Of a stretch of DNA of 64,000 nucleotides, positions 5,675 to 54,935 are shown in pieces. The notes under the pieces were generated by a model. It worked only from the letters and a program-made list of their open reading frames with translations, was not told the DNA's origin and ran no database searches. The translations under genes were made by a program, and so were the position numbers. The stretch is from an uncultured Hyphomicrobiales bacterium (GTDB lineage: Bacteria; Pseudomonadota; Alphaproteobacteria; Rhizobiales; Beijerinckiaceae). The stretch covers positions 1 through 64,000 of the forward strand of contig CAINNX010000029.1 in assembly GCA_903851305.1 (NCBI GenBank). Reading direction: 5' to 3'. How positions within the stretch are numbered: position 1 is the first letter of the stretch; each line of letters opens with the position of its first letter.

Positions 5675-6748
5675 TCAGACCTGCCGCAGCACCTGCGCCA
5701 TATAGGCTTCAATGGAGGCCCAGTTGCGCCCCGCACCAATGGCGGCGCGATAGGAGCCAACAATGCGCGCCGCAAATGCGCTCTCGGATGCTTTGCGATC
5801 CAGCACCACTTGCGTCTTGGCGCGCATGGCGGCGATGACATCTGGCGGAAAGGCAGTCACCTTCGCGCCTGCGGCGACGAGTTCGACAATCGCCTGCGCA
5901 TTGCTGGCCTGCGCTTCCACGAGCCCCGCATTATGTTCGGCCGCGCAGGCGGTCTCGACAATGGCGCGCAGATCGTCTGGCAATTTCTCGAAAGCGGGGA
6001 TGGAGAGCAAAGCCTCAGCCGCGCCATTGGGCTTGTTGAAGCCCGGCATGTGATAGATGGGCGCATATTTCTGAAAGCCGAGTGGCTGGTCATTGACGGG
6101 TGCGAGCAATTCCACCGCATCAATCGTGCCGCGCTCAAGCGCTGGCACAATATCGCCCGGAGGAATGGATTGCGGTGTTGCGCCCAGTTCCTTGTAAACC
6201 TCGCCACCCAGACCTTGCACGCGTATGCGCAGGCCTTTCAGATCATCGACCGATGTGATGGCTTTGCGAAACCAGCCGCCCATTGAGGGGCCGGTGTTGC
6301 CAGCGAGCAAGCCACGCACGCCAGCGGGGCGGTAAAAATCGTCCCACAATTGCTGGCCACCGCGCTGTTCAATCCATGTCTGATGTTCAACAGGCGGCAG
6401 TCCAAAGGGCGCCGTGGTGAAGAGGGCCGCGCCCGGCATTTTGCCATCCCAGAAGAACGAGGCCGTGTGGCCCATTTCCGCGACGCCGGTCGAGACAGCT
6501 TCAAACACGCCAAAGGCTGGCACGATGGAGCCGGCCGGAAACACCTCCACCAGCATGCGCCCGCCGCTCATCTTGTTGATGCGCGCGGCGAGGCGTTCGG
6601 CAGACACGCCGGGGCCGGGAAGATTCTTCGTCCATGAGGTGATCATGCGCCAGCGGATCACGCTTTGTGCGCGCACTATGTGTGGGCTTGCGAGGGTCGC
6701 GGCTGCTGTTGCGGCCAGAAGTGTGCGGCGGGAGGAGATGTGGGTCAT
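5675..6748 (-). CDS. TRAP transporter solute-binding protein (DctP family), Tat/Sec signal
   Basis: MTHISSRRTLLAATAAATLASPHIVRAQSVIRWRMITSW...FWDGKMPGAALFTTAPFGL...LKGLRIRVQGLGGEVYKELGATPQSIPPGDIVPALERGTIDAVE. Confidence 0.88.
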   Translation of the reverse strand: MTHISSRRTLLAATAAATLASPHIVRAQSVIRWRMITSWTKNLPGPGVSAERLAARINKMSGGRMLVEVFPAGSIVPAFGVFEAVSTGVAEMGHTASFFWDGKMPGAALFTTAPFGLPPVEHQTWIEQRGGQQLWDDFYRPAGVRGLLAGNTGPSMGGWFRKAITSVDDLKGLRIRVQGLGGEVYKELGATPQSIPPGDIVPALERGTIDAVELLAPVNDQPLGFQKYAPIYHMPGFNKPNGAAEALLSIPAFEKLPDDLRAIVETACAAEHNAGLVEAQASNAQAIVELVAAGAKVTAFPPDVIAAMRAKTQVVLDRKASESAFAARIVGSYRAAIGAGRNWASIEAYMAQVLRQV

Positions 6749-6861: not shown

Positions 6862-9900
<3,039 letters not shown>

Positions 9901-51398: not shown

Positions 51399-51608
51399 GA
51401 TTATCTGGTAGCGGGCGTGAGATGATTTGTCACCTCTCCCGCAACGCCATTTTACGAATTAACGAATCGTAACAGATCGTTGGATATTTCGTAGGGATGT
51501 TTCTGGTTTGGTGTCGGCCTCCCCTTGCGGAACCTCGACCGTTCTTATGCGTTCCTTTAATGTTTCCTGCGATTGTAGTTTGTTTTTTAATTGATTGACG
51601 GAATTTGA

Positions 51609-52126
51609 TGGTGTTTCGACAAGCCGCATTGGGGCAAAGGTTAGGTGCGTTCTGTCGCGCCGGATCTGGCGCTGTTTTTGTCGAATTTTCACTCGCGCTT
51701 TGGCCTTTATTGGCGACGCTTCTGTTTGTCTATGACACGGGCGCGAATTTCCTGACATTTCGTCAGGTTGACCTGGCGGGTGCAGCTCTCATCGAAAAAA
51801 TGCGCAGCGGACAAATTGATCCACGCAATTACACCCAAGCCTCGTTTCGCCAGTCCTTATTGTGTCCGGCCGTCACCATTGTTGCTTGCGATCAGTTCGT
51901 GGTCCATTTGTCGGATGCGCAGACCGGCCCCAAGTTGACGCCCACGCAGGTCTCTGGTGCGCAATGGTGTCCAGGTGGACCATCGGATGCGCGCATCCTG
52001 CAGATTGCATTCCCTGTGCCGTTTTTGTCGCGCATTTGGGCCGGCGCGCTTGTTGATGCGCATGTGTATTACGTGTCGGCTTTTGGATTGCGTAATCGTC
52101 CCGATGTTGCTGTGGGGGCGTGCTGA
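51609..52126 (+). CDS. TadE-like pseudopilin
   Basis: Short leader then G^AVFVEFSLALWPLLATLLFVYDTGANFLTFRQVDLAG, TadE-type hydrophobic segment with Glu at +5. Confidence 0.78.
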
Positions 52127-52127
52127 C

Positions 52128-52802
52128 ATGCGTGCCTTATTCGCCAGATTTCGTGCAGACATGTCAGGCCTGACGTTGATTGAATCGACCTTCTTCATGT
52201 TGCTTCTCATCGCCTTGATGGTAACGGGCACGGAGGTGCAGCGTTATTTTCGTCTGGCGCGTCATATGTCTGCGGGTGGTGAGAGTCTGGCTGATCTGAT
52301 GGGCCAGCGCCGCGCACCAATGCGTGATTTTAACTGGAGCGAAGATACATCCTCTCTGGTTTGGCTTGTGCCTGAAGTGCAATCGAGCGCGGGCACAGAT
52401 TGGCGCCAGTCTGTTGGTGTGCAAACCACCTATGTGCGTTTTGTGCCAATTGATCCAAATTGCACCAGCAATTGTTTGGCAGATCGGGCGCGTATTTTGT
52501 GGACATGGGACGGCGGTGTTGCAGGGTCGCGGCGTTTGCTCACCGCAGCATCATTCTTGCGCGAATGTGGCGTGGTGCTTTTGCCGGGTGGTGATGGAGC
52601 TGCGCGCGACACTTTGCCCGTAGCGCTGTTTACGGGTCAAGATTTGCTCATCGTAACATTGGTGTATCGCTTCCAGCCGCGCGTATTGAATTCTTTATTT
52701 ACGGCAAAAACCCTTCTGACGCAGGCCTATCTTGCCGTGCCGACCGACAGGCTCACAATTGATCCGTTGGGGATCGCCAATGAGGTCGCGCCATGTCCTT
52801 GA
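52128..52802 (+). CDS. TadE/TadF-like pseudopilin
   Basis: MRALFARFRADMSG^LTLIESTFFMLLLIALMVTGTEVQRYFRLARHMSAGGESLADL; prepilin-like site with Glu at +5; starts 2 nt after the upstream stop. Confidence 0.75.
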   Translation: MRALFARFRADMSGLTLIESTFFMLLLIALMVTGTEVQRYFRLARHMSAGGESLADLMGQRRAPMRDFNWSEDTSSLVWLVPEVQSSAGTDWRQSVGVQTTYVRFVPIDPNCTSNCLADRARILWTWDGGVAGSRRLLTAASFLRECGVVLLPGGDGAARDTLPVALFTGQDLLIVTLVYRFQPRVLNSLFTAKTLLTQAYLAVPTDRLTIDPLGIANEVAPCP

Positions 52803-54760
52803 AAGTGCTGGCGCACGCAGTTCAGGATTTTCGGGCGCGGCCTTATGGCAATGCGATTTTGATCGCGCTCGCTATCTTGCTGCCGATCATGTTGCTGACA
52901 GGCGCGGCCCTTGATTACGGCATGGCCTGGCAGGCACGCCGCAAGCTGGATGTGGCTGCGCAATCAGCAGCGGCGGCTGCAGTCGCGCAAAGCCGCGCCT
53001 TGCGGGCTATTTTTCCTGATGTGCCGCTGGAAGACATGATGGAAAAAGGCCGCGGATGCGCCGATATGGTGTTCAATGCGCAAAAGCCCAATGTGCAAAA
53101 TGTGCGCACGAATTTCCGGCTTGAGCGGACCAGTGAGCGCAGCACATATTTGGCCAGTGTTGAATATGACGCCTTGTTGCCGAGCGTCTTTATGCGTCTC
53201 GTTGGCCTTCGCGAACTCAGTTTGCGGGGGCGCGCCACGGCGCTCTGGGTTGCGCGTGATGCGCTACTTGATGATGATTTCAGCGATTATGAAGCCGAGG
53301 TGCGCGCAGGTGGCACCAAAGCTTTTGCGCCCCTGAATGGTTGGGTATCAGGATTGCGACTGCGTCCGGGCGGGTCACCCGTCATGCCATTATCGGCGGC
53401 TGATCGTTATCCGGGCGCGCCGCCGCCAACTGGCGTTGTCGTGGCCCTTGAGCTCGACACAGGCATCGATAGCGGATTTATCGCCAAAAAGTTTTCGGCT
53501 GATCCCGGTTTGCATCAGGTGCGCTACTGGTATCGCGATCAGGCACGCAATGAAACGCTGGCGCCAGCATGGCTGTGTGGCGCGCGCGAAGAGGACGTGA
53601 TGTGGATGACCACACGCGACCGGAGTCTGGCAGGAAACACCAATCGCATGTCGGTGCATTTGGTACTCGATGAAGGTGGCAGGCCACCTTCGAATGATCT
53701 TGGCTTTCATGCCGGCAATCGCATTGATGCTTGTTATAGCTCGGGCGGGCGCTGGATAGAGCGCGTCATCAAAGTCGATATTGCCACGCGTGGCGATTAT
53801 TGGATCGCCTTCAGGCCCGAGGGGAAAGTTGATTCCCTTGGGCCCTTGATCGCCAATATTTTGGTGTGCCGCGAGCCTTGTGCACGCGACAATGGTGAGC
53901 CACGCCCAGCCCCGTCCAGCAATTTTCCGTGGCGCACGGATGAGGTTTTGTTCGAGGATCGTTTCACATCAGTGAGCGAGAATCCGATCGCCAATTCCCC
54001 GCCCGCTGGCGCGAGTGGCTGGGATTATCTGCCACCCGGTTGGACGGTTTGGCCTCAAAATCAGGTTGGTTATGTCGCGGGGAAAAGTGGCGCCTCCGGC
54101 TATGCCGAGCTTGATGTGCGCACGCCAAGTGGCAGTTATGAAAATCGCGCCATGGCGCGTTCCTTCATGCTCGTGCCAGGCTTCTATCAATTGCGCTATC
54201 AATACAGCACAGGCGCTAATCAGGTAGCGGCCGCCGCTTGCAATTATTTCAGCGTGGAGGGCGCTTTGCAGCGCGTGCCACGCCAGCGTGGCGCTGATTC
54301 ACGACGCGTGTCCGTCCATGTCGATGCTGATTTAGCCTCATTGCATCCCGAGCTGTCCGGGCGTTCGGCCGAAGAGAGGGCCAGCTGGTACACGCCTGAT
54401 CGCATGCCGGAGCGCGACGCCAGGCTGGAGCGACTGGTGCGTCTGCCCAGTCTCGCCAATGCGGTGGATTTCTGCATCGATGCCCCGGCGGGGGCGCCGA
54501 TCTCGCGTGAAGTCATGTTCAAGGTGGAGCGCCCCGGCTTGTATTGGATCACCTTTGTCGGGGGTGGAGCGGCGGATGGGGATGGTGGCCGGGTTTCCGC
54601 GGTTCAGCTGATTGCCAAAGGGGTGGTTCCGGGTGGGGCTGCCTTGCCGCGTGTGGTGCGTGGTTTTGATCGCAATGACCCCATAAATCCCCCAATGGGC
54701 TCTTGGGTGGCGGTGCCGGCCGCAGCTGGTAGCAGGGCGCCCTATAAGGTTCAGCTCTAA
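52793..54760 (+). CDS. TadG-like protein with large C-terminal duplicated module (655 aa)
   Basis: YGNAILIALAILLPIMLLTGAALDYGMAWQARRKLDVAAQSAAAAAVAQSRAL (TadG N-terminus); long extracytoplasmic C-terminus; 10-nt overlap with upstream gene. Confidence 0.8.
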   Translation: MSLKVLAHAVQDFRARPYGNAILIALAILLPIMLLTGAALDYGMAWQARRKLDVAAQSAAAAAVAQSRALRAIFPDVPLEDMMEKGRGCADMVFNAQKPNVQNVRTNFRLERTSERSTYLASVEYDALLPSVFMRLVGLRELSLRGRATALWVARDALLDDDFSDYEAEVRAGGTKAFAPLNGWVSGLRLRPGGSPVMPLSAADRYPGAPPPTGVVVALELDTGIDSGFIAKKFSADPGLHQVRYWYRDQARNETLAPAWLCGAREEDVMWMTTRDRSLAGNTNRMSVHLVLDEGGRPPSNDLGFHAGNRIDACYSSGGRWIERVIKVDIATRGDYWIAFRPEGKVDSLGPLIANILVCREPCARDNGEPRPAPSSNFPWRTDEVLFEDRFTSVSENPIANSPPAGASGWDYLPPGWTVWPQNQVGYVAGKSGASGYAELDVRTPSGSYENRAMARSFMLVPGFYQLRYQYSTGANQVAAAACNYFSVEGALQRVPRQRGADSRRVSVHVDADLASLHPELSGRSAEERASWYTPDRMPERDARLERLVRLPSLANAVDFCIDAPAGAPISREVMFKVERPGLYWITFVGGGAADGDGGRVSAVQLIAKGVVPGGAALPRVVRGFDRNDPINPPMGSWVAVPAAAGSRAPYKVQL

Positions 54761-54894: not shown

Positions 54895-54935
54895 GCGCTC
54901 CGGCCAAATCGAGGCCGATAGCGCGGCCTTTTTTT
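54895..54935 (+). promoter_or_regulatory. Putative terminator/antiterminator (attenuator-like) in carB leader
   Basis: GCGCT-cc-GGCC-aaatcga-GGCC-gat-AGCGC competes with AGGCC-gatagcgc-GGCCT followed by 7 T. Confidence 0.4.

Follow-up and report, generated by a model that had tools for sequence, protein, structure and literature searches.

A TadEFG-like minor-pilin trio whose TadG-like protein carries predicted tandem jelly-roll domains, encoded apart from the Tad machine in a Beijerinckiaceae genome

Three adjoining genes in the window, by which we mean the whole 64,000-nucleotide stretch of DNA that was analysed, are likely to encode a TadEFG minor-pilin tip complex of an ordinary Tad (tight-adherence, type IVc) pilus, which is exported by a Tad machine located elsewhere in the genome and presents a tandem jelly-roll adhesin. 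Such a complex would represent a new type of Tad pilus tip, in which one or two jelly-roll domains of adhesin/CBM-like fold stand where TadG usually has its VWA domain, and it lends support to the recent proposal that exchangeable tip domains adapt Tad pili to different uses.

The gene trio and its surroundings

The earlier note on this DNA had described three overlapping or abutting pseudopilin-like genes, and the coordinates bear this out: ORF1 and ORF2 abut, and ORF3 overlaps ORF2 by 10 nt. The start of ORF1 is the ATG at 51608 (placed at 51609 in the earlier note). The features are as follows.

51608..52126, + strand: TadE-like minor pilin (ORF1, P0001), 172 aa
52128..52802, + strand: TadF-like minor pilin (ORF2, P0002), 224 aa, TadE superfamily
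52793..54760, + strand: TadG-like putative tip minor pilin (ORF3, P0003), 655 aa, pilin module plus two jelly-roll domains
54911..54930, + strand: intrinsic-terminator-like hairpin and T-run in the gap between tadG and carB, suggestive only (8 sites in the region against 5.7 expected)

The trio is preceded on its 5' side by trmL-like, hemF and gtrA-like genes, the last of these on the - strand, and is followed on its 3' side by the terminator-like hairpin, carB and then greA. A scan for a sigma-70-like promoter upstream of the trio found none. In nearer relatives the location with gtrA on one side and carB on the other is conserved; in more distant genomes (G028, G027 and Bosea) TadG lies in other neighbourhoods. 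Measured against a sister genome whose TadG is 95% identical to that of the window, dN/dS is 0.12 for TadE, 0.08 for TadF and 0.06 for TadG, with a value of 0.035 for carB. Since dN/dS lies between 0.06 and 0.12 across the trio and the synteny is conserved, the arrangement is not due to chance, and this analysis establishes that the three genes are real and under purifying selection.

The identity of the two smaller proteins was established through their sequence features together with their orthologues. As had been proposed, both have short leaders with Glu at +5 of a putative prepilin peptidase site, which falls after residue 21 in ORF1 (AGSG^AVFVEF) and after residue 14 in ORF2 (MSG^LTLIES), so that the hallmarks of TadE and TadF (a short hydrophilic leader, a G^X4E site and a hydrophobic helix) are present in P0001 and P0002 alike. 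Neither protein gave a significant match to Pfam, both remaining under threshold, and a comparison with NCBIfam yielded no match for ORF1 or ORF2 and a sub-threshold match only for ORF3. Orthologues from the same genus that occupy the corresponding gtrA-carB interval are nonetheless recognised as members of the TadE family (PF07811): for ORF1 those at L077 and L082 score above the cutoff and that at L079 just under it, and for ORF2 all three score above it. The window proteins share 45-47% identity with close orthologues, and profile-profile comparison with the recognised ones gave E values of 4e-29 for ORF1 and 4e-33 for ORF2. Because the Pfam TadE model found no match when used to scan the genome of the trio, not even the trio's own proteins, this model alone misses such divergent members; the window copies fall below the Pfam thresholds, and automatic annotation could therefore miss TadE-like and TadF-like genes of this kind.

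Elsewhere in the window no tRNA genes were found, and the sole Rfam match is a TPP riboswitch (RF00059, 60.8 bits) at 8748-8849 on the - strand.

The TadG-like protein and its predicted jelly-roll domains

The TadG-type N-terminus ascribed to the third protein by the earlier note is confirmed by a match of ORF3 to the Pfam Tad family (PF13400), with 32.9 bits against a cutoff of 22.3. Its candidate cleavage site, G^NAILIALAILLP, is one from which Glu5 is absent, and we regard processing of the protein as uncertain without this residue. An AlphaFold2 model of the full-length protein (17 sequences in the alignment, pLDDT 79) predicts a pilin-like module at residues ~17-153, in which a long helix (17-73) is followed by another helix and by three strands (102-153), and after residue 153 two beta-sandwich domains:

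53255..53890, + strand: predicted jelly-roll domain 1, residues 155-366 (AlphaFold2, pLDDT 88.5, pTM 0.88; Foldseek)
53939..54628, + strand: predicted jelly-roll domain 2, residues 383-612 (AlphaFold2 model), homologous to domain 1

The relationship between the two domains was recovered by hhalign with a probability of 99.8 and an E value of 1.3e-30, and four Cys are among the invariant residues of domain 1 (alignment A8). Foldseek returned gingipain K3 cleaved-adhesin, Eph ligand-binding, MAM and CBM61 domains as the nearest to domain 1 (E ~1e-7 to 1e-5) and tandem CBM22 as the best match of the whole protein, with modest TM-scores of about 0.4-0.6 that speak to fold class and not to function. 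While a predicted jelly-roll beta-sandwich is thus shared with gingipain Kgp K3, MAM and CBM61 (PDB 3m1h, 5l73 and 2xom), the architectural context differs and there is no significant sequence similarity, a search of PDB sequences with profiles A3 and A8 having found none to any chain. It is purely by virtue of this predicted fold class that we call the jelly-rolls adhesin-like, and the jelly-roll TadG constitutes a concrete adhesin candidate.

The earlier note was also right that the C-terminus of the TadG-like protein is not of the standard kind, tandem jelly-rolls taking the place of a VWA domain. A standard VWA C-terminus, which it had named as one of the observations that would speak against its reading, was looked for and not found: ORF3 has no Pfam VWA match, no VWA among its top fold matches, no MIDAS (DxSxS) motif and no conserved catalytic motif. 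A VWA-type TadG of the CpaL subtype is ruled out by the missing VWA and MIDAS.

The jelly-roll TadG occurs in freshwater Beijerinckiaceae, and a one-domain version is found in Bosea and Brevundimonas. Because the Bosea and Brevundimonas proteins stop directly after their single jelly-roll, the domain behaves as a module. A search for P0003 in plasmids gave no match.

The fold matches bear on what the C-terminal domains might do. They could be mainly structural or mechanosensory parts of a TadG tip, binding no ligand, much as CpaL, another TadG, has been proposed to act as a mechanosensor in surface sensing (PMC12607857); jelly-rolls can be structural, and the lack of a conserved catalytic or MIDAS motif would suit such a role. 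The nearest folds, however, are mostly ligand- or glycan-binding, and the strong constraint on domain 1 (dN/dS 0.03) fits a binding surface, though it fits a structural role too. We consider a tip of this mainly structural or mechanosensory kind unlikely, and favour an adhesin that would contact a surface or ligand.

The Tad core and the Flp pilins

The genome that contains the window (G000) is a 2.76 Mb draft in 186 contigs with a completeness estimate of 100%. The absence of Tad machinery from the window, as reported in the earlier note, holds, and extends to the whole of the trio contig (C29): this contig has no CpaF, prepilin peptidase, CpaB, secretin or Flp match, and a genome-wide HMM search places all of them on contigs C171 and C109. 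For the CpaF-type ATPase, the A24 prepilin peptidase, CpaB and the secretin the search identified exactly one copy each, in every case on C171, and it is here that the tad/cpa locus and CpaA, which the earlier note had suggested looking for elsewhere, were found. The genes form a run in the order cpaA-cpaB-cpaC-[cpaD]-cpaE-cpaF-tadB-tadC, and at its tadC end the run meets a convergent TPR (tadD-like) gene; cpaD is a putative assignment made by eye, and cpaE was identified via its position and a GAKGG motif that is intact in relatives. Two tandem Flp pilins are encoded on C109 (L131, 9317-9950), unlinked from the Tad core. A second TadEFG set was not found in this genome, in which PF13400 has a single match.

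The Tad system of this bacterium is dispersed over three loci, with the core on C171, the Flp pilins on C109 and the trio on C29, the link between trio and core being one of presence in one genome and homology only. The description of the trio as an orphan with no secretion machinery is therefore correct for the window and incorrect for the genome, where the core and the pilins on other contigs rule out an orphan system. Of the two readings offered earlier, the one that invokes a remote Tad machine has good support from the C171 core, the C109 pilins and the precedent of unlinked TadEFG genes (PMC12918737), and nothing in this genome supports a pilus-independent envelope system. The lack of a tad locus close to such a trio should not be taken to mean an orphan system.

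The Flp genes on C109 have as neighbours an operon for an ABC transporter and a long ORF (1231 aa), probably a ribonucleotide reductase, and in two other genomes (G074 and G086) Flp pilins lie in the same neighbourhood.

Within the C171 run, cpaE (L057, ~6400-6420) is split into two frames by a 1-nt contraction of a poly-G tract in the region of its GAKGG motif. This frameshift in the G000 assembly, together with the core genes missing in some members of the genus, could be taken to mean that the Tad system is decaying and that the trio is a remnant. The gene is intact, however, in a 95%-identical sister (G079, L176:371-1633), for which reason the split is probably an assembly error and only possibly a real lesion; the rest of the Tad core is intact, as are the three trio genes, which are under strong purifying selection. 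We regard decay as extremely improbable.

Proposed working of the trio and its distribution in relatives

One known counterpart with which the trio can be compared is that of Caulobacter crescentus, where deletion of either cpaJ or cpaK leads to loss of the pili and where CpaL has been modelled together with both at the pilus tip (PMC12607857, PMC13170226); the pilin module of CpaL consists of a helix and three strands (PMC12607857). The window trio resembles CpaJ/CpaK/CpaL in pairing two small TadE-type pilins with a large TadG-type protein whose predicted N-terminal pilin module agrees with that of CpaL. It departs from CpaL, which combines a VWA domain with a MIDAS and inserted beta-barrels, in that its TadG has two jelly-rolls and no VWA or MIDAS was found. 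In Myxococcus xanthus, KilL/KilM/KilN form TadEFG-like trios that serve as exchangeable tips with variable ends (PMC12075869), and the likeness extends to the TadE/F/G-like composition, the unlinking of some KilLMN from their machine and the variable C-terminal domain of the large subunit. Unlike in Myxococcus, with its several alternative tips per genome, one trio was found here, and its C-terminal domain is a different one. Another parallel is the TadGEF cluster 4 of Bradyrhizobium diazoefficiens, also a Hyphomicrobiales genome, in which TadEFG is likewise unlinked from the Tad core clusters (PMC12918737); mutants of this cluster are described there, citing Mongiardini 2016, as impaired in root adhesion.

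On the strength of the predicted fold and of what is known for the homologues in Caulobacter and Myxococcus, we infer processing, co-assembly, a tip location and ligand binding for the trio, as follows. The CpaA prepilin peptidase encoded on C171 would trim TadE and TadF, and possibly TadG, after which the three N-terminal helices would come together as a bundle at the CpaF/TadB/TadC platform within the inner membrane. This TadE-TadF-TadG bundle would prime polymerisation of the Flp pilins from C109, and the growing filament would drive the tip complex out via the CpaC secretin with TadG outermost. There the TadG jelly-rolls, replacing the usual VWA, may touch a surface or ligand (glycan or protein) and so set the adhesion target of the pilus.

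Of the 51 genomes of the genus, 24 have a match that covers the larger part of the two-domain TadG; other members have N-terminal TadG matches only, and their C-termini differ. A CpaB match accompanies the two-domain TadG in 19 of these 24 genomes, the remaining five being drafts that are 76-93% complete, and this co-occurrence is uninformative within the genus, as CpaB is matched at a similar frequency with and without the two-domain form (19/24 and 20/27, respectively). A family member with 100% completeness (G030) has no P0003 match, and it also lacks an A24 peptidase, Flp, a Tad-domain protein and CpaF above cutoff, which speaks for the tip-complex reading. The named relatives that were matched are metagenome-assembled genomes of Beijerinckiaceae/Hyphomicrobiales, some of them from repeatedly sampled sites.

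Four genomes depart from the pattern. G068 (76% complete) and G069 (92% complete) each carry a pair of TadE/F/G sets, and neither CpaF nor CpaB nor a secretin was detected in these two genomes. In G064 (L105, L142) and G043 (L106, L146) tadG persists between gtrA and carB with tadE and tadF missing there, and G064 gave no CpaF or secretin match. All four are drafts, and they suggest a loss of Tad genes. They are also what speaks for a pilus-independent trio, in which TadG would sit in the periplasm or at the surface, anchored to a membrane and partnered by TadE and TadF, and no filament would be assembled. Several observations stand against this: the window genome possesses a Tad core, prepilin-type leaders with Glu5 are present, G069 retains an Flp pilin, and a locus can be missed in a draft assembly. 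G043, moreover, still has a cpaA followed directly by cpaE, cpaF, tadB and tadC (L171, C136, 4072-9404), with no cpaBCD between, and a secretin on a separate contig (C144). We judge a pilus-independent trio very unlikely. That the trio or TadG alone outlived the Tad machine in part of the genus, with the tandem jelly-roll TadG acting as a surface protein that needs no pilus or is exported in another way, seems to us quite unlikely as well, and the remotely exported tip complex remains our preferred reading.

The trio sets of G069 lie on contigs C10, C18 and C23 (including Flp) and those of G068 on C40 and C49, with two tandem two-domain tadG genes on C40. Another member of the genus, G058 (100% complete), has no CpaF or CpaB match and shows seven TadG-like N-terminal matches.
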